Part shown: positions 28,331 through 37,387 of the stretch, piece by piece
Layout of the letters: each line of letters starts with the position of its first letter
How positions within the stretch are numbered: position 1 is the stretch's first letter
From: Candidatus Pacearchaeota archaeon
GTDB taxonomy: Archaea; Nanobdellota; Nanobdellia; Pacearchaeales; GW2011-AR1
DNA: 42,586 nucleotides
NCBI GenBank assembly: GCA_017609885.1
Contig: JAFCDB010000009.1
Coordinates: 1 to 42,586, forward strand
Direction: 5' to 3'
The notes under the pieces: generated by a model
Databases searched by the model: none
What the model saw: only the letters and a program-made list of their open reading frames with translations
What the model was told of the DNA's origin: nothing
Program-made: the position numbers and the translations under genes

Positions 28331-28369
28331 GCCGCCGTCGCATAGTGGTTATTGCACTAGATTGCTAAG
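28331..28369 (+). pseudogene. 5' half of a disrupted tRNA-Ser gene
   Basis: GCCGCCGTCGCATAGTGGTTATTGCACTAGATTGCTAAG; acceptor GCCGCCG perfectly complements CGGCGGC at 34735-34741. Confidence 0.82.
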
Positions 28370-28484
28370 ATAGACCACAAAAGTGTTACACTGGGTAGAA
28401 AACGGCTATAAAATATTAATAATAATCAAAAATCACAATCAACAAGCATAAACTTTAAATTATCAAAAAGAATCATATTCATAT

Positions 28485-28565
28485 GCTCTGGTCGCATAAT
28501 GGTATTGCACGAGATTGCTAATCTCGACCCTTCGGGGTGCGCAGGTTCGATTCCTGCCCAGAGCG
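28485..28565 (+). tRNA. tRNA-Ser(GCT), intact, carried inside the element
   Basis: GCTCTGG/CCAGAGC acceptor, CGAGA-TTGCTAA-TCTCG anticodon arm, long variable arm CCCTTCGGGG, GCAGG-TTCGATT-CCTGC T arm. Confidence 0.95.
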
Positions 28566-28571
28566 TGTCTT

Positions 28572-28853
28572 TTATTTAATTTTTAATTCTTCTTTTAATC
28601 TACTAGCTTCTTTTTTTAACTCTGCCACTTGATTATCATAATCTGGGAGTTCGTCTTTCTTCTTTTCCAAATTTTCAATTTCTTCTTCAATTCCTTTCAA
28701 CATTCTTCTTCTTTCTTTTTGTTCCTCCAACTTAAATCTATTAGAAATTTCCTCATTCTTCTTTATTAAAAAATTAAGAAGTCTTTCCATTACATTCAAA
28801 ATATCTTGTTGTTCTTCCAACACTGTTTTAAATTTCTTATCTCTACTTTTCAT
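28572..28853 (-). CDS. Coiled-coil hypothetical protein
   Basis: 93 aa; 4-nt overlap with upstream RHH-like gene. Confidence 0.55.
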   Translation of the reverse strand: MKSRDKKFKTVLEEQQDILNVMERLLNFLIKKNEEISNRFKLEEQKERRRMLKGIEEEIENLEKKKDELPDYDNQVAELKKEASRLKEELKIK

Positions 28854-29135: not shown

Positions 29136-29405
29136 ATGGTTAAAAGAAAGAAAGGTGAGAGAAGTGGCAATGTTTTAAATGAACTTGATTTAGCTGTTCT
29201 TAAAACTCTCAAAAATAATAAAAACAAAGATTTAGGTGTTGGTGATTTACAAAAGATATTAAAACTTACTCACATGAGTTTGAAAGTTCATGTCAGACAT
29301 CTTCTTAAAATAAAATTAATCCAAGACCAAGAAGTTCAAAAACATGGTAAGATTCCATTAAAGATTACAAAAAATGGTGAGTTAATTTTAAAGGTGTTAG
29401 GTTAG
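29136..29405 (+). CDS. Winged-helix transcriptional regulator
   Basis: 89 aa; LDLAVLKTLKNNKNKDLGVGDLQKILKLTHMSLKVHVRHLLKIKLI. Confidence 0.7.
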   Translation: MVKRKKGERSGNVLNELDLAVLKTLKNNKNKDLGVGDLQKILKLTHMSLKVHVRHLLKIKLIQDQEVQKHGKIPLKITKNGELILKVLG

Positions 29406-30328
29406 ATTTTAAATTCTGGATATTCCATTGGTTTTAGTATCTCTTCTTTCTTAGATTGCTTGTGCTTTTCTAATACATAATCTCTAATTCTTCCAGGAAC
29501 AAATGCTAACGGTAATAAATATGGTTTACTAATTGAACTTCCTAAAAGTATTCCTGTTGCTATTGCCATACTACCTCCAGCTAGTAATCTAACTCCTTGA
29601 AATTTTTCACTTGATAAAGAATAAAAAGGCCAACGAGCTTCGAATTGTGCATCAGAATCATGGCTTAATAATTTATCAGTTAAAATTTCAACAGCTCTTT
29701 CATGAATTGCATGTTCAACTTGATATTTTTCAAGTTGTGGTAATTCTTCTCTTATGAATGCATTAACAAAATTTCTTCCTGTTTCTGCTTGGTATCTAAT
29801 AACTAGATAATGTAAAGATTCATGAAAAGTAGTGGATTTTGTTTCAGGAGGAGTTCTATCATTTGGCATTTCAATTATCCCTTCATAACCAGGATATTGT
29901 TTAAACTTTTCAGAAATATCTTCTCTCAATCTTTTGTCTAATGGTTCTTCTCCTTCTTTAGATTTTTCTTTATTCTTTCTTGGTACAGCAGCTATACAAT
30001 GAGCAGCCATAAAATATTCATCATGCAATCTTCTTTTTGAAGGTCTTAAAAAATCAAAAGGCATAAATGTTGTTCTTAAAGCCCACATAAAAGGATACTT
30101 TGAATCTCTAGGAACAAATTTTGGACGTTTCTCATCTGATGCATCTTTTAAAGCTCTATCAAAAGCTTTTCTATCTTCAAAATAATCTTTTGCTTCATCA
30201 GCGTGAGCAATAAAGTCATCATAATATGTTTCTAAATCATGTTCAGTAGCTTTAGGTCTAACTTGAAAAGTAGCTAAATCTAAAATTCGATTTTCTAATC
30301 TTATTTTTCCCTGTGATATTCTTATCAT
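29402..30328 (-). CDS. Putative membrane-associated HExxH zinc metallopeptidase
   Basis: 308 aa; TTFHESLHYLVIRY with downstream HAIHERAVEILTDKLL; C-terminal hydrophobic segment. Confidence 0.6.
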   Translation of the reverse strand: MIRISQGKIRLENRILDLATFQVRPKATEHDLETYYDDFIAHADEAKDYFEDRKAFDRALKDASDEKRPKFVPRDSKYPFMWALRTTFMPFDFLRPSKRRLHDEYFMAAHCIAAVPRKNKEKSKEGEEPLDKRLREDISEKFKQYPGYEGIIEMPNDRTPPETKSTTFHESLHYLVIRYQAETGRNFVNAFIREELPQLEKYQVEHAIHERAVEILTDKLLSHDSDAQFEARWPFYSLSSEKFQGVRLLAGGSMAIATGILLGSSISKPYLLPLAFVPGRIRDYVLEKHKQSKKEEILKPMEYPEFKI

Positions 30329-31008
30329 TTTCTTCTTCTTGTAAAATCAACCATTGACATAGCATTTCTTAAATAATGCCATCCGCAATAAGAATTTCTA
30401 GCTTTAAATAAAAGACTATCTTTTGGTTGTTCAAATTCTTCATCAAAAACATAATCAGGATTTATTGAAAATCTTCCATTTCTTTGCTCAACCATTCCTT
30501 TTTGTCCTAATAGGTTTAGAACTCCTTGATATTCTTTTGCCAATAAATTTTGTGAATCATCAGATTCAAAAATTCTCTTAATAGGTTTTATTCTCCAAGG
30601 TCTTTGAACCCCATAACCTAAAAGATAATTATTCAATGGGTTTAAAACATCAAATTCCTCAACTCCTGCTTTTCTAAATCTAACTAATTCTCTTCTTACT
30701 AATTCTGACTTCATCCTATTAGATATTTCAACACATTTCTCTTCATTATACACAGGAACCATTCTCAAATGAGTGTAAGGATGTCCAACTTCAAATAATT
30801 GTAAAGTAAAAGGATGAATTAAATGAATACTTATATTTGGTTGCATTTCTATAGGTTTATTCTTTGGATTTTGTGATGTTAAAGCAACTAAATCAATATC
30901 AGAATCTTTTCTATAATATCCATTCACATAAGAACCATAAACATAAAGTGCATCAACAGAATCATCTTCAAGCACTCTATCAACACATCTTGAGAGAGTT
31001 TTGTCCAT
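30325..31008 (-). CDS. Pol-beta superfamily nucleotidyltransferase-like protein
   Basis: 227 aa; YVYGSYVNGYYRKDSDIDLVAL (GS..DxD). Confidence 0.78.
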   Translation of the reverse strand: MDKTLSRCVDRVLEDDSVDALYVYGSYVNGYYRKDSDIDLVALTSQNPKNKPIEMQPNISIHLIHPFTLQLFEVGHPYTHLRMVPVYNEEKCVEISNRMKSELVRRELVRFRKAGVEEFDVLNPLNNYLLGYGVQRPWRIKPIKRIFESDDSQNLLAKEYQGVLNLLGQKGMVEQRNGRFSINPDYVFDEEFEQPKDSLLFKARNSYCGWHYLRNAMSMVDFTRRRK

Positions 31009-31012
31009 TTTG

Positions 31013-32203
31013 TTACCTCTTTTTAACCTTTCTTAATTCATTTTGAAGATTATGATATTGTTCTTCATTCCAAACAGATTCTCCTAATACAGTTAATCTT
31101 ACTCCCCCTTTTGTAAATCTATAATATTCTGCTCCATAACTTCCAAAATGTTTCTTATTATGTGGTAGTATATATTCTATCTCCCCCATTCTATCACCAC
31201 CAGATGTAAAAATTAATTCATATTTTGTAGGAATTTTAGGCTCACCTTTGTCTGCATAAAAATCCTCTTGTTTAGGTGTTGTTCTTGGTGCATTTTTGAA
31301 AGGAACTGTAGCAAATGCTAATATTTGTCCTAAATCATTTTTTCTAATTCCTTTAACAGCAACTTGTTTATTTAATGCTCTTCCTATTGCTTCTAAAATA
31401 TTTTCTGTAGTTCTAACTCTTGCATTAGTTCCAGCTGCTAAAAAACCTGCATAATCAATTGAATCTCCCCTCCATCTCATAAACCAAGGTTTACTAACTC
31501 CCTTAAAGTCCGAGTTTCCAAAACTATAAAATCTAGTTACATCATCAAATTGTTTTTTAGGTGGCTTAGTAGGTCTTCCTTGCAAGACTAAAGCGGTATT
31601 AGGGACATAAAAACTTTCTTCAGTATCATCCACTAGCCTATTCCAAACAACATGATACTTCATTCTTCCTTCTCTAATTAAAATTGGAAATTCTTTAGAA
31701 TGTTGGTCATAACCTTGTAAATGAACATCTTCTCTTACTGCAAGTTCAAATCTTCCATCATCTGTTTCACTAATTGTAAATCCTACTTGAGATTGTAATT
31801 TTTCTTTACTTCTATTTGCTAATTCTTTACTCCATTCACCTTCAGAAACAGGAACATATAAGTGCCCTTCTTCTCCTTTATTCTTTCCATCCATACCTTT
31901 TCTAAATCTTTGAGCAATTCCAGTAAATGAAGTTTCGTCATCTACTAATTCGCACATTTTTTCTAAGTCTGGATTTAAAGAATCTACAGAAGGCAATCCA
32001 TTTGGGGATATAGATAAAACTGGTTGAGTTCCATTTGAATTAATATATGTTAAAAAATCTTTTTCTGTTCCAATTACACTTCTCATTTGAGAGTGCATTA
32101 AATGTTGAAAACTTCCTTCATCACTTGCAGAAATTCTTTTATCAACTTCACATTCTAAATGTGCTAAATAATCAAAAAGCTCATTTTCAAAGAGAGTTGC
32201 CAT
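31013..32203 (-). CDS. Element-encoded protein of unknown function
   Basis: 396 aa ORF in tight operon (1-nt gap to upstream ORF). Confidence 0.65.
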   Translation of the reverse strand: MATLFENELFDYLAHLECEVDKRISASDEGSFQHLMHSQMRSVIGTEKDFLTYINSNGTQPVLSISPNGLPSVDSLNPDLEKMCELVDDETSFTGIAQRFRKGMDGKNKGEEGHLYVPVSEGEWSKELANRSKEKLQSQVGFTISETDDGRFELAVREDVHLQGYDQHSKEFPILIREGRMKYHVVWNRLVDDTEESFYVPNTALVLQGRPTKPPKKQFDDVTRFYSFGNSDFKGVSKPWFMRWRGDSIDYAGFLAAGTNARVRTTENILEAIGRALNKQVAVKGIRKNDLGQILAFATVPFKNAPRTTPKQEDFYADKGEPKIPTKYELIFTSGGDRMGEIEYILPHNKKHFGSYGAEYYRFTKGGVRLTVLGESVWNEEQYHNLQNELRKVKKR

Positions 32204-32204
32204 T

Positions 32205-32393
32205 TTAATTTTCTCCTTTTTTCACCTTTATCTCTAAAACTCCCTCCAAAACTGTTCCTTCCAAAAGACCTTCTACAGTTTCATAAAATCTTCCTGCAGC
32301 AGTTTTTAGGCCATTATATAATTCTCTTTCTTCTTCTGTTGGAGTTCCGTCTACTTTCATTTTTCCATCTTTGTATTCTATGTCTATTTTCAT
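32205..32393 (-). CDS. Element-encoded small protein of unknown function
   Basis: 62 aa; 1-nt gaps on both sides. Confidence 0.6.
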   Translation of the reverse strand: MKIDIEYKDGKMKVDGTPTEEERELYNGLKTAAGRFYETVEGLLEGTVLEGVLEIKVKKGEN

Positions 32394-32394
32394 T

Positions 32395-33324
32395 TTATTC
32401 TCCCCTTGTATTTGGATTTAATAACAATCTTCCTTGTGGTTCATGTTTTTGAGATTCTAATTTATAAGAACCATTTGGACTATTCAAATCAGTTTCTAAT
32501 TGCTGAAGAGATGCTCTAAATTCGTTCGAACCATTATCTTTCAAAGCGCACATTTTCTTATATCCTTGAACTAAACTTCTCATTCCATTAATATATGCAG
32601 TTCCATATTGCCTCAATGCTTGCTGACTAGTAATAGATGCTGTTCCACCTCTTCCTAAATTTTGAAGTGTTCTTTGTATTTCTTCCATCCCCTCTCTAAG
32701 TTGAGTTAAATCAAAATAACTTCTAGTCATTCCTCCAACCCATTCACAACCGACAAAACATAATGCATGCATTGATTCTAAGTATTGTTCACTAAGATTA
32801 ACATGTTGTTTAAGCCAACCAAGATATTCTTGCTGTTTTTCTTCTTTTCTTTCTGGTGATAAACGTGAATCAACTTCAGCAAATAAATCTTTCATATCTA
32901 TTTGTTCACCATCTAAAGAAACAACATAATCAATATCAGTATTAGCTTCAATAAACTTAACAAATTCTTGAGGCTCCCATCCCTCTTGAACAGCAGTATC
33001 ATAAATTCCATTTAATTGTGCTATTCTTTCTTTTTCTTCTTGAGCCTTTTTCCCAACTTTAACTAATGAAACAAGAGAATTATTAAGTCCTGTTCTTAAT
33101 TCTGATTCTAAAGAACCCAAAGGTTTAATTGCTCTAACTCTAGTAACAACTCTTCCAACAACAGGCAATCTTCCAACATAACCCATTACACCCATTTTAT
33201 GATTAAGAGACTTAGCTATTTGATAATCTATTTTTCTAGCTTCTTTAAAAGAATCTTCTAATCCCTTACCAATTTCATGAGTAATTTCTCTTTCACGACC
33301 AAAACTAACTGTTGCTGGTAACAT
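32395..33324 (-). CDS. Element-encoded mostly helical protein of unknown function
   Basis: 309 aa ORF, first gene of the operon. Confidence 0.65.
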   Translation of the reverse strand: MLPATVSFGREREITHEIGKGLEDSFKEARKIDYQIAKSLNHKMGVMGYVGRLPVVGRVVTRVRAIKPLGSLESELRTGLNNSLVSLVKVGKKAQEEKERIAQLNGIYDTAVQEGWEPQEFVKFIEANTDIDYVVSLDGEQIDMKDLFAEVDSRLSPERKEEKQQEYLGWLKQHVNLSEQYLESMHALCFVGCEWVGGMTRSYFDLTQLREGMEEIQRTLQNLGRGGTASITSQQALRQYGTAYINGMRSLVQGYKKMCALKDNGSNEFRASLQQLETDLNSPNGSYKLESQKHEPQGRLLLNPNTRGE

Positions 33325-34607: not shown

Positions 34608-34691
34608 AAACTATGATATATTTAATTGCATATAAGAAGTAATATAAGTATTTAAATCTTTCCAGTATAGTGGACATAAAGTTCAACTATC

Positions 34692-34742
34692 TTGCTAAGC
34701 CGTGCCCTTCGGGGTGCGCAGGTTCGATTCCTGCCGGCGGCG
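34692..34742 (+). pseudogene. 3' half of the disrupted tRNA-Ser gene
   Basis: TTGCTAAGCCGTGCCCTTCGGGGTGCGCAGGTTCGATTCCTGCCGGCGGCG: variable arm, T arm, acceptor CGGCGGC + discriminator G. Confidence 0.85.
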
Positions 34743-34781
34743 TTCCTAAAAACTTATAAACTCCTTTCAACTAATTGTACT

Positions 34782-35168
34782 ATGAAAATGAAAGTTTCTC
34801 AAATTATGCGCAAGGCAGTTGTGATTGATGACCACATACTTGTAAGGGATGCTGCAAAAATTATGTCAAAAAAAGATATTGGGAGTTTGATAATTGTAAA
34901 GGATTCTAAGGTTAAGGGAATAATTACTGAAAGAGATGTAATGAGGAATATCAAAAAAATAAATTCAAAAGTTAAACAAGTAATGAGTACAAAAGTTTTG
35001 ACTACTTCGCCTGATGAGGACTTGTCAGAAGTTGCGAATCTTATGACAGCCCACAAAATAAAAAGAGTGCCTGTTGTTGATAAAGAAAAATTAGTAGGAG
35101 TTATAACAATAACTGATGTTCTTGCGCATTCAAGCGGAGATTTCGGAGAGGATTTTTTGATTAATTAA
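34782..35168 (+). CDS. CBS-domain protein (start revised)
   Basis: MKMKVSQIMRKAVVIDDHILVRDAAKIMSKKDIGSLIIV..GIITERDVMR..VPVVDKEKLVGVITITDVL: two CBS motifs. Confidence 0.92.
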   Translation: MKMKVSQIMRKAVVIDDHILVRDAAKIMSKKDIGSLIIVKDSKVKGIITERDVMRNIKKINSKVKQVMSTKVLTTSPDEDLSEVANLMTAHKIKRVPVVDKEKLVGVITITDVLAHSSGDFGEDFLIN

Positions 35169-35931
35169 CCTTCGCTTCCCTCGTCTTCAAAGTTTCCAAA
35201 TCAAATTCTTTTAAAATCTCCAAAACATTTTTTCTCTGCTTAGAATTTCCCAAACCTTTCCAATCAATTAAAAAACAATCAATTTTTTCAGCTGTTTTTG
35301 AAATTGCCTGTTCAATCATTTGTTTTTTTAATGGAAATGCATATTCTGGAATTATGTGGGAAATTGCAAACTTATTTTCTAATTGAATTTGATTGAAATT
35401 AGAGCAATAGTGCGGACCTCCGACTCCAATAGCAACTTTATATTTTCCTTTCTTTTGATTTTTAGTTGATTTTATAATTGTTTTAGCAATAATCTCTCCT
35501 GCTTTTTTATCCTGCCATTGTTTTTTTGTAGAACCAATTTCAATAAACAAACAGGGAGTTTTGACAAATGGGCCGTGATGTGTTACTTCTAAAGAAACTT
35601 CGTAATCTAAATTATTTGTTTTGTTAAGAGTTTGAAAGAAATTTTTTAAGATTAAAGAGCTTGTTGAACAAAGGGTTTGAGCTTTTCCTCCAAATTCTGC
35701 TTTATTCCAGTTTCCAATTGCATGGACTGACAGGGTTTTAATTTCTTTTTGCGACTGGTGTTTTGATGCAAAAATTAGAAAATCAGCATTTATAGTTTCA
35801 TTAATATTTTCTGCAAAAATTATTTCTTTTTCAGTAAAATAAATCGGAAGTTTACAATCAAGTTTTTTTAAATTTTGAATTATATTTAATGCTGCAGGGT
35901 CTTTTTTTGAAGCGACAATTGCAAATTTCAT
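35161..35931 (-). CDS. dtdA: Archaeal-type D-aminoacyl-tRNA deacylase
   Basis: 256 aa; MKFAIVASKKDPAALNI, VTHHGPFVKTPCLFIEIGST, GVGGPHYC. Confidence 0.9.
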   Translation of the reverse strand: MKFAIVASKKDPAALNIIQNLKKLDCKLPIYFTEKEIIFAENINETINADFLIFASKHQSQKEIKTLSVHAIGNWNKAEFGGKAQTLCSTSSLILKNFFQTLNKTNNLDYEVSLEVTHHGPFVKTPCLFIEIGSTKKQWQDKKAGEIIAKTIIKSTKNQKKGKYKVAIGVGGPHYCSNFNQIQLENKFAISHIIPEYAFPLKKQMIEQAISKTAEKIDCFLIDWKGLGNSKQRKNVLEILKEFDLETLKTREAKVN

Positions 35932-35950: not shown

Positions 35951-37387
35951 TTATAATTCGTAAGTTCCTAAATAATCTTTTATTTCTTCTGTTTCAAGAG
36001 GAGTTTCAGAGAATTTACTCGCAAGGTTTTTTATCCAGCGCATTCTATCTAATTCAATTTCCTCACTAAGGTCTTTTTGACTTTTTGAATAATCATAAGA
36101 ATTTTCAAGCCAGTAGCTGCCAATTTCAAATCTCACAACAAGACGCCCATTGACAACTTCTGACTTTGTAATCTCAACCTCTTTTTCCCCAGTTTTAGCT
36201 TGAAGAACAAAAAGCTCTTCCTGAGTCAAAGTATAATCTGGTAAATCTTCCTCAACAATTGTTTCATTAAATAAAGTTTCATTTGTGGTTGTTTCATTAA
36301 TTTCAGATTCTAATTTGCCTTCAACAAAACTTTCAGGATTTTCACTATCAAGAATTGTAGAAATTGAAACAATCTCTTTAGATTCATAGGTCAAAGAAAC
36401 AACAAAATCCCCTTCTTGAGGAATTATTTCTAAAGAAGATAAATCTATTTCTATTTCATAAGCATATTCTCCTAAAAACTCCTTTCCAAACCCCTGTTCT
36501 ATTTCAAAATAATCTGTTATAATAGTTACTGTGTTTTCTTCAATATTTATCTCAACATCTTGTGATGAAGAAACAATTTCTGCACTCTCGCCCTCTGCTA
36601 ATTCATATGTAAAATAAGATTGCGCATTTGTTGTTCCCTGGATTTCAGAAATTAATTCAGCAACAACACTGCCAGTTATTGGAGATGTTTCAATCTCGCT
36701 CTCGCTTGTTTCACTATCACTTGAACTCTCTTCAGAACTTGACTCTTCGGTTGGAGTTGTCTCTTCTGTAGATTCAGCAGATTCTTTTGTTTCACTTGAA
36801 CTTTCTTCAACTTGTTCTTCAGGAATTTCTTCTGGTTCTTCTGCTATTTCCTCAACAGGTTCCTTGGGAGTTTCTTCGGGAGTTTCTTCGGGAGTTTCTT
36901 CGGGAGTTTCTTCGGGAGTTTCTTCGGGAGTTTCTTCTTCACTTTTATTACCCTCTCCGTCTCCTTCTGAACTCTTACTTGCCTTTACAATTTTCAACTC
37001 AAATTTAACATCAGGATAAACAATTTTTTCCCCAGCAACCCCAAAACCAGATCCTATCCCAGAGATACTTTTTCCCTCAATAAAAAAATCTCCTTCAACA
37101 GTTGACTGTGAAATTAATTCTTCAAGGGCAAATTTATATTGATCTTTTTCTGATGCAACTAAAACCAACGTATCTGCAGGCATTAATTCACCCGACTTCA
37201 TTGAAAGAGAAATTTTTCCTTGGAGCAATTCATTTTCATGGTAAATAGTATTTAATGAAATCGGAACTTTTCCAGTAATTGAAAATTTAAATAAATTAAA
37301 GAAAAAGATTACGAGAATGGCAATTAAAAAAAACATTATTATTGAACCTATTAATTTAAAATTTGTTTTTCTCTTTCTTTTTTTCAT
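35951..37387 (-). CDS. Membrane-anchored surface protein with Pro/Glu repeat region
   Basis: 478 aa; N-terminal TM, (EETP)n tract, Ser/Glu-rich linker. Confidence 0.7.
   Translation of the reverse strand: MKKRKRKTNFKLIGSIIMFFLIAILVIFFFNLFKFSITGKVPISLNTIYHENELLQGKISLSMKSGELMPADTLVLVASEKDQYKFALEELISQSTVEGDFFIEGKSISGIGSGFGVAGEKIVYPDVKFELKIVKASKSSEGDGEGNKSEEETPEETPEETPEETPEETPEETPKEPVEEIAEEPEEIPEEQVEESSSETKESAESTEETTPTEESSSEESSSDSETSESEIETSPITGSVVAELISEIQGTTNAQSYFTYELAEGESAEIVSSSQDVEINIEENTVTIITDYFEIEQGFGKEFLGEYAYEIEIDLSSLEIIPQEGDFVVSLTYESKEIVSISTILDSENPESFVEGKLESEINETTTNETLFNETIVEEDLPDYTLTQEELFVLQAKTGEKEVEITKSEVVNGRLVVRFEIGSYWLENSYDYSKSQKDLSEEIELDRMRWIKNLASKFSETPLETEEIKDYLGTYEL
36866..36937 (-). 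repeat. 12-bp tandem repeat (GGGAGTTTCTTC x6 on + strand)
   Basis: Six consecutive identical 12-nt units, in frame, encoding EETP on the minus strand. Confidence 0.95.

Follow-up and report, generated by a model that had tools for sequence, protein, structure and literature searches.

How could a cell survive the disruption of an essential tRNA gene by a mobile element? The question is raised by a 42,586-nucleotide contig of a Candidatus Pacearchaeota archaeon (JAFCDB010000009.1, assembly GCA_017609885.1), referred to as the window throughout, in which an integrative element with a tyrosine integrase gene lies between two halves of a tRNA-Ser(GCT) gene and holds a complete tRNA-Ser(GCT) within its own boundaries. 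Genetic islands that enter tRNA genes normally rebuild their target (Islander, PMC4383910; archaeal tyrosine recombinase review, PMC8371274). An initial annotation of the window had proposed that this element instead carries an intact tRNA that could replace the one it destroys, and that it would thereby become hard to lose. Our analysis supports the first of these proposals. With a probability of about 0.88, we consider that a Pacearchaeota integrative element breaks the only tRNA-Ser(GCT) of its host and brings a complete copy in its place, a whole-tRNA replacement. The window is contig C29 of a Pacearchaeota draft genome (G000; 750 kb, 89% complete), and the relatives compared with it (other G numbers) are Candidatus Pacearchaeota whose genome contigs were scanned.

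A host tRNA gene split in its anticodon loop

In the broken host tRNA-Ser(GCT), the 5′ half reads GCCGCCG...CTAGA-TTGCTAA, and its likeness to a tRNA stops exactly after the anticodon loop. The 3′ half, located just beyond the start of the integrase gene, begins with the same seven bases (TTGCTAA-GCCGT...CGGCGGC-G), and over the acceptor stem the halves are complementary at 7/7 positions (GCCGCCG/CGGCGGC). Because of this pairing and the shared TTGCTAA core, the 6,330 bp between the two cores are recognized as an insertion placed in the 7-bp anticodon loop of the host tRNA-Ser(GCT). The coordinates of all features are collected in Table 1.

The complete tRNA-Ser(GCT), which the initial annotation had placed about 120 bp from the left attachment site (attL), starts 116 bp past the left core and thus inside the element. 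It is called by ARAGORN as tRNA-Ser(gct) (28484-28566) and matched over its full length by the Rfam family RF00005 (28485-28565, 61.3 bits, E = 1.9e-11). The difference in acceptor stem that had been pointed out earlier is genuine (GCTCTGG/CCAGAGC in the cargo versus GCCGCCG/CGGCGGC in the target), and the cargo tRNA is 82% identical to the joined target. A count of tRNA-Ser(GCT) genes in the genome had been named beforehand as a check; in searches of the G000 contigs, no second intact copy was found among 32 tRNA matches in the 89% complete assembly, in which the cargo gene is the sole tRNA with a GCT anticodon. A pattern built on the tRNA-Ser(GCT) 3′ half matched the cargo tRNA and the displaced 3′ half in G000, and nothing else. 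AGC/AGT codons are present in 23/23 host genes checked.

The same architecture in related genomes

The plan of the window element recurs in three further genomes. In G002, which belongs to the same genus as the window genome, contig JAGVWP010000028 carries a 5′ half (GCCCAGA...CAAGG-TTGCTAA), a whole tRNA-Ser(GCT) at 1482-1564, an integrase with 57% identity to that of the window, and a 3′ half, spanning 11.2 kb in all. The broken host gene of G002 differs from that of the window, whereas the cargo tRNAs of the two genomes are 94% identical mutually, against 82% (G000) and 77% (G002) to their own broken genes. Apart from the integrase and a winged-helix gene, the two elements have little in common: the stretch between left core and cargo shows a partial likeness that only equals the best of 500 shuffles and is taken as supporting evidence only, and the G002 element has in addition a primase-helicase-like protein and a sodium symporter. 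In G077, a member of another genus, a tRNA-Ser(GCT) is split into perfectly matching halves, and a whole tRNA-Ser(GCT) adjoins the integrase 52 bp from the 3′ half. The fourth case involves another isotype. In G059 a tRNA-Lys(CTT) is split at the core CTCTTAA, a whole tRNA-Lys(CTT) follows about 73 bp after the 5′ half, and the integrase and matching 3′ half come at a distance of about 19.5 kb from that 5′ half; a single contig holds the whole arrangement. The tRNA-Ser(GCT) of G096 is also split; its intact copy was not found and lies perhaps in a gap between contigs.

The splitting integrases (G000, G002, G077 and G096, with G059, G003, G070 and G137) form one group (support 96/96) in a maximum-likelihood tree, and integrase homologues of the same archaeal family that sit next to intact tRNAs fall outside this group. 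G059 carried no label when the tree was made and was identified as a splitter only afterwards. No target was found for the integrases of G003, G070 and G137, which lie in the same clade.

Two further loci resemble parts of this plan. A lone tRNA-Ser(GCT) 3′ half in G062 (C46, L163 646) is preceded by an inverted repeat (TAAGGTAA...TTACCTTA) and is probably one more split case. A tRNA of G076 is cargo-like in appearance; no split half exists on its short contig, and it was rejected as a cargo gene.

Relatives without the element

Genomes without the element show what the site looks like when undisturbed. In G005 the site of the window is uninterrupted and consists of a tRNA-Ser(GCT) followed by a CBS-domain gene and a D-aminoacyl-tRNA deacylase gene. 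When joined, the halves of G002 are identical to the sole intact tRNA-Ser(GCT) of G001, and the left flanks of these two loci contain stretches that are 91-92% alike. G001, G004 and G005 have one tRNA-Ser(GCT) each, and none of these is of the cargo type with its GCTCTGG acceptor strand, a comparison that the initial annotation had called for. In a wider sample, the tRNA-Ser(GCT) 3′-half pattern was matched in 125 of 187 family genomes, and 114 of these 125 match once, the remainder including split cases; one tRNA-Ser(GCT) copy per genome is the family norm. Judged by sequence, the broken gene in both G002 and the window is the host's own.

In G001 (C23:791-14902, L114), the CBS and deacylase genes of the window's site lie about 12 kb from the tRNA-Ser(GCT) on the same contig, and a distant integrase (29% identity) adjoins the intact tRNA, with no displaced 3′ half found; this is possibly an ordinary island at the same site. 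G066 was considered as an uninterrupted relative of G077, but only a flank match of about 20 bases and no longer synteny was seen, and it is not used as proof.

Alternative explanations

Could the locus be an ordinary tRNA island, in which the intact tRNA is the host gene rebuilt at attL from a half carried on the phage-type attachment site (attP), with the half at 28331 as an unrelated leftover of an older insertion? Most tRNA islands behave in this way (PMC4383910, PMC8371274), and homologous integrases in the same family do adjoin intact tRNAs. However, the acceptor strand of the displaced 3′ half, CGGCGGC, is complementary to the half at 28331 but not to the intact tRNA, whose own strand is CCAGAGC; in G002 and G059, too, the two halves fit together in both stems and do not fit the intact copy. 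We therefore regard an ordinary island as very improbable.

The two tRNAs might also be host tandem duplicates that predate the element, which would merely have inserted in one copy; cargo and target are, after all, of one isotype, 82% identical and 116 bp apart. Against such a history, four genomes hold the intact copy within the limits of the element, the G000 and G002 cargo tRNAs are closer to one another (94%) than to the genes next to them (82% and 77%), the relatives G001, G004 and G005 with their single tRNA-Ser(GCT) lack a cargo-type copy, and the G059 case concerns a different isotype, all of which leaves prior duplication with still less credit.

Least credible is a functional, trans-spliced split tRNA as in Nanoarchaeum equitans: it would accord with the complementarity between the stretch that follows the 5′ half and the stretch that precedes the 3′ half in G077 and G096 (0/1000 random pairs as good), with the missing intact copy of G096 and with introns at the same place in relatives, but that complementarity is explained as attP symmetry, and in the window the anticodon stems (CTAGA/GCCGT) do not pair, the flanking complementarity is only 5 bp, the joined halves do not fold as a cloverleaf, both halves carry the same seven loop bases, inspection reveals no four-base-pair core of a bulge-helix-bulge motif, and an intact copy exists. 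Long dyad symmetry of attP was not above chance in G000 or G002 and hence is not claimed for the window element. The introns seen at the same position in G028, G013 and G033 look like ordinary archaeal tRNA introns.

Four observations weigh against whole-tRNA replacement itself. The window halves are mismatched in the anticodon stem, CTAGA (28357-28361) versus GCCGT (34699-34703), which a single insertion does not explain; one possibility is serial insertions that mixed halves, for which a chimeric tRNA in G070 can be cited. At 89% completeness, a further tRNA-Ser(GCT) could be missing from the G000 assembly. The halves of G077 sit on two contigs (C1 and C10). Finally, the G059 bin contains another tRNA-Lys(CTT), interrupted by a group I intron, so the cargo tRNA may not be needed in that genome. 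In this other gene (G059:C3, L244 554-850), the intron (RF00028, 59.5 bits) occupies the anticodon loop, the very spot that the related integrase targets.

Proposed mechanism and its consequences

Whole-tRNA replacement would proceed as follows. The integrase is predicted to recombine the 7-bp TTGCTAA core of attP with its counterpart in the anticodon loop of the only tRNA-Ser(GCT) in the host. The sequence shows that attP holds no tRNA half, so that integration leaves two dead halves. It also shows a complete tRNA-Ser(GCT) next to attP, with an archaeal promoter of its own; this copy would be expressed and would take over the reading of AGC and AGU codons, making integration survivable. In the circular form, as reconstructed from the two ends, integrase, attP and tRNA would follow one another as a single compact module. 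After integration the cell would depend on the tRNA of the element, and precise excision could reverse this state for as long as the halves match, as they do in G002 and G059.

The proposed addiction to the element, the second part of the earlier suggestion, holds in part. Clean excision in G002 and G059 would rebuild a perfect host tRNA, so the cargo would mainly make integration survivable and punish partial loss, not clean loss. The window element, on the other hand, is probably locked in, because the anticodon-stem strands of its host halves have ceased to match and clean excision should leave a defective tRNA.

A more far-reaching view is that the splitting clade repeatedly and permanently takes over essential decoding in Pacearchaeota, the host tRNA being broken and then decaying until the tRNA of the element is the only copy of the species, even after the element has eroded. 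We hold this as a tentative idea, somewhat more likely to be wrong than right. It draws on the mismatched window halves, on G068, in which the only intact tRNA-Ser(GCT) found is intron-bearing and resembles the cargo tRNA of G077 at 94%, a native-type 3′ half lying 1.9 kb downstream, and on the chimeric tRNA of G070.

Both of the latter loci have further features. Three displaced tRNA-Ser(GCT) 3′ halves with differing acceptor ends lie within 7 kb downstream of the intron-bearing cargo-type tRNA in G068 (C19:36895-43940; L187, L188), apparent relics of serial insertions. The chimeric tRNA-Ser(GCT)-like sequence of G070 (C22, ~436, minus strand; L196) has halves joined at TTGCTAA that match in neither stem and is likely a recombination scar.

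Relation to known systems

The closest parallel in logic is the tRNA-dependent lysogeny of mycobacteriophages such as Fionnbharth, in which the phage tRNA has been proven necessary (Guerrero-Bustamante and Hatfull, 2024; PMC10865867). That study does not mention archaea, and its authors left open how frequent the strategy is elsewhere and how it relates to the tRNA-rebuilding kind. No report of archaeal tRNA-dependent lysogeny was found in the literature searched, which took in few subscription journals; judged by title, none of the 18 papers in it with this term concerns archaea. Fionnbharth and the window element share a tyrosine integrase, an attachment site (attB) in a single-copy host tRNA gene that is not rebuilt, a short shared core (about 10 bp in the phage and 7 bp in the window), and a separately promoted tRNA of the host gene's isotype that has diverged in sequence. 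They differ in that one is a bacterial phage, whereas the other resides in an archaeon and has no recognised virion gene; in the isotype, which is lysine TTT in the phage, serine in the window and lysine CTT in G059; and in the position of the tRNA, which overlaps protein gene 37 in Fionnbharth but adjoins attP (about 50-116 bp) in all four archaeal cases. The host halves are moreover altered in the window, and the need for the tRNA is proven in the phage and predicted here. By analogy, the window element would work like tRNA-dependent lysogeny.

Among archaeal elements, SSV-type and pNOB8-type tRNA islands (PMC8371274, PMC4383910) likewise use a tyrosine integrase and cross over in the anticodon loop, and the integrase gene of the window is whole as in the pNOB8 type. 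Their target, however, is rebuilt from a half borne on attP, whereas the attP of the window has no such half and the element brings a whole tRNA. The nearest archaeal case is the tRNA-Thr(GGU) locus of Caldiarchaeum (Sugahara et al., 2012; PMC3293823), where a recombinase-bearing insertion stands between a 5′ tRNA fragment and an intact gene for that isotype. It has been read as rebuilding with intron gain, its fragment and intact gene forming a direct repeat at the two ends; in the window, by contrast, the two halves on either side of the element come from a single broken gene, and a further, whole gene lies within it. The Lj965 prophage of Lactobacillus johnsonii, as cited in PMC10865867, also leaves the tRNA at its junction without rebuilding and has a cognate tRNA, but it is a bacterial prophage.

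A tactic proven so far in mycobacterial phages thus appears to be used in Archaea as well, where the same logic would operate with two different tRNAs. Since the same archaeal family also has sister integrases next to intact tRNAs, the order of events is open to study. The tactic may offer a route for the horizontal replacement of an essential tRNA gene. It may also give rise to broken tRNA halves in very small archaeal genomes, which usually have a single copy of each decoder.

Gene content and further observations

Besides the integrase, whose nearest solved structure is XerA (a weak match), the element encodes mostly small or unassigned proteins (Table 1). No credible virion gene was recognised in a PHROGs search, several element genes being without a family, and because of this the element is not filed as a phage lysogen. 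The window integrase has no relatives in IMG/VR.

Table 1. Features of the split tRNA-Ser(GCT) locus in the window (aa, amino acids; ORF, open reading frame)
Feature	Position	Strand	Basis
5′ half of host tRNA-Ser(GCT), ending at anticodon loop core TTGCTAA (28362-28368); attL	28331-28368	+	Sequence; single place in genome; GCCGCCG pairs with CGGCGGC
GATAG, left inner arm of predicted attP (CTATC-TTGCTAA-GATAG)	28369-28373	+	Sequence
TATA box TTTAAA of cargo tRNA, at -31	28454-28459	+	Position and sequence equal to other tRNA genes of G000
Cargo tRNA-Ser(GCT), intact, acceptor GCTCTGG/CCAGAGC	28485-28565	+	ARAGORN; Rfam; 94% identity to G002 cargo tRNA
Small coiled-coil-like protein	28572-28853	-	ORF; sub-threshold Pfam match only
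Small basic protein, 66 aa	28850-29050	-	ORF; no family match
Winged-helix-like regulator	29136-29405	+	41% identity to the G002 gene that adjoins its integrase
308 aa protein with HESLH motif	29402-30328	-	ORF
Nucleotidyltransferase-fold protein	30325-31008	-	PF18765, PF01909; weak MntA-like match
396 aa protein	31013-32203	-	ORF
62 aa protein	32205-32393	-	ORF
309 aa protein	32395-33324	-	ORF
Tyrosine integrase, 407 aa	33384-34607	-	PF00589, E 8.5e-9; phrog_1, E 7e-14; weak XerA-type match; homologues; tree
CTATC, right inner arm of predicted attP	34687-34691	+	Sequence; G002 has the same ACTATC-TTGCTAA
3′ half of host tRNA-Ser(GCT), starting with core TTGCTAA; right attachment site (attR)	34692-34742	+	Acceptor CGGCGGC pairs with 5′ half at 28331
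Host flank: CBS-domain gene and D-aminoacyl-tRNA deacylase gene	34781-35931		Synteny with uninterrupted site in G005

Two observations concern other parts of the genome. A tRNA-like gene at G000:C36:32106-32187 (minus strand; L017) combines a serine-type long variable arm and G73 with an anticodon loop, CTGATGC, in which the anticodon appears to be GAT (isoleucine). The gene is absent from the ARAGORN calls, and a second Ile(GAT)-like tRNA, with an intron, exists in G000 (L020). In the window, beyond the element, a 12-bp tandem repeat (TTCTTCGGGAGT) at 36836-36943 lies within the gene at 35951-37387, where it encodes consecutive PEET units of a protein predicted to be anchored in the membrane.
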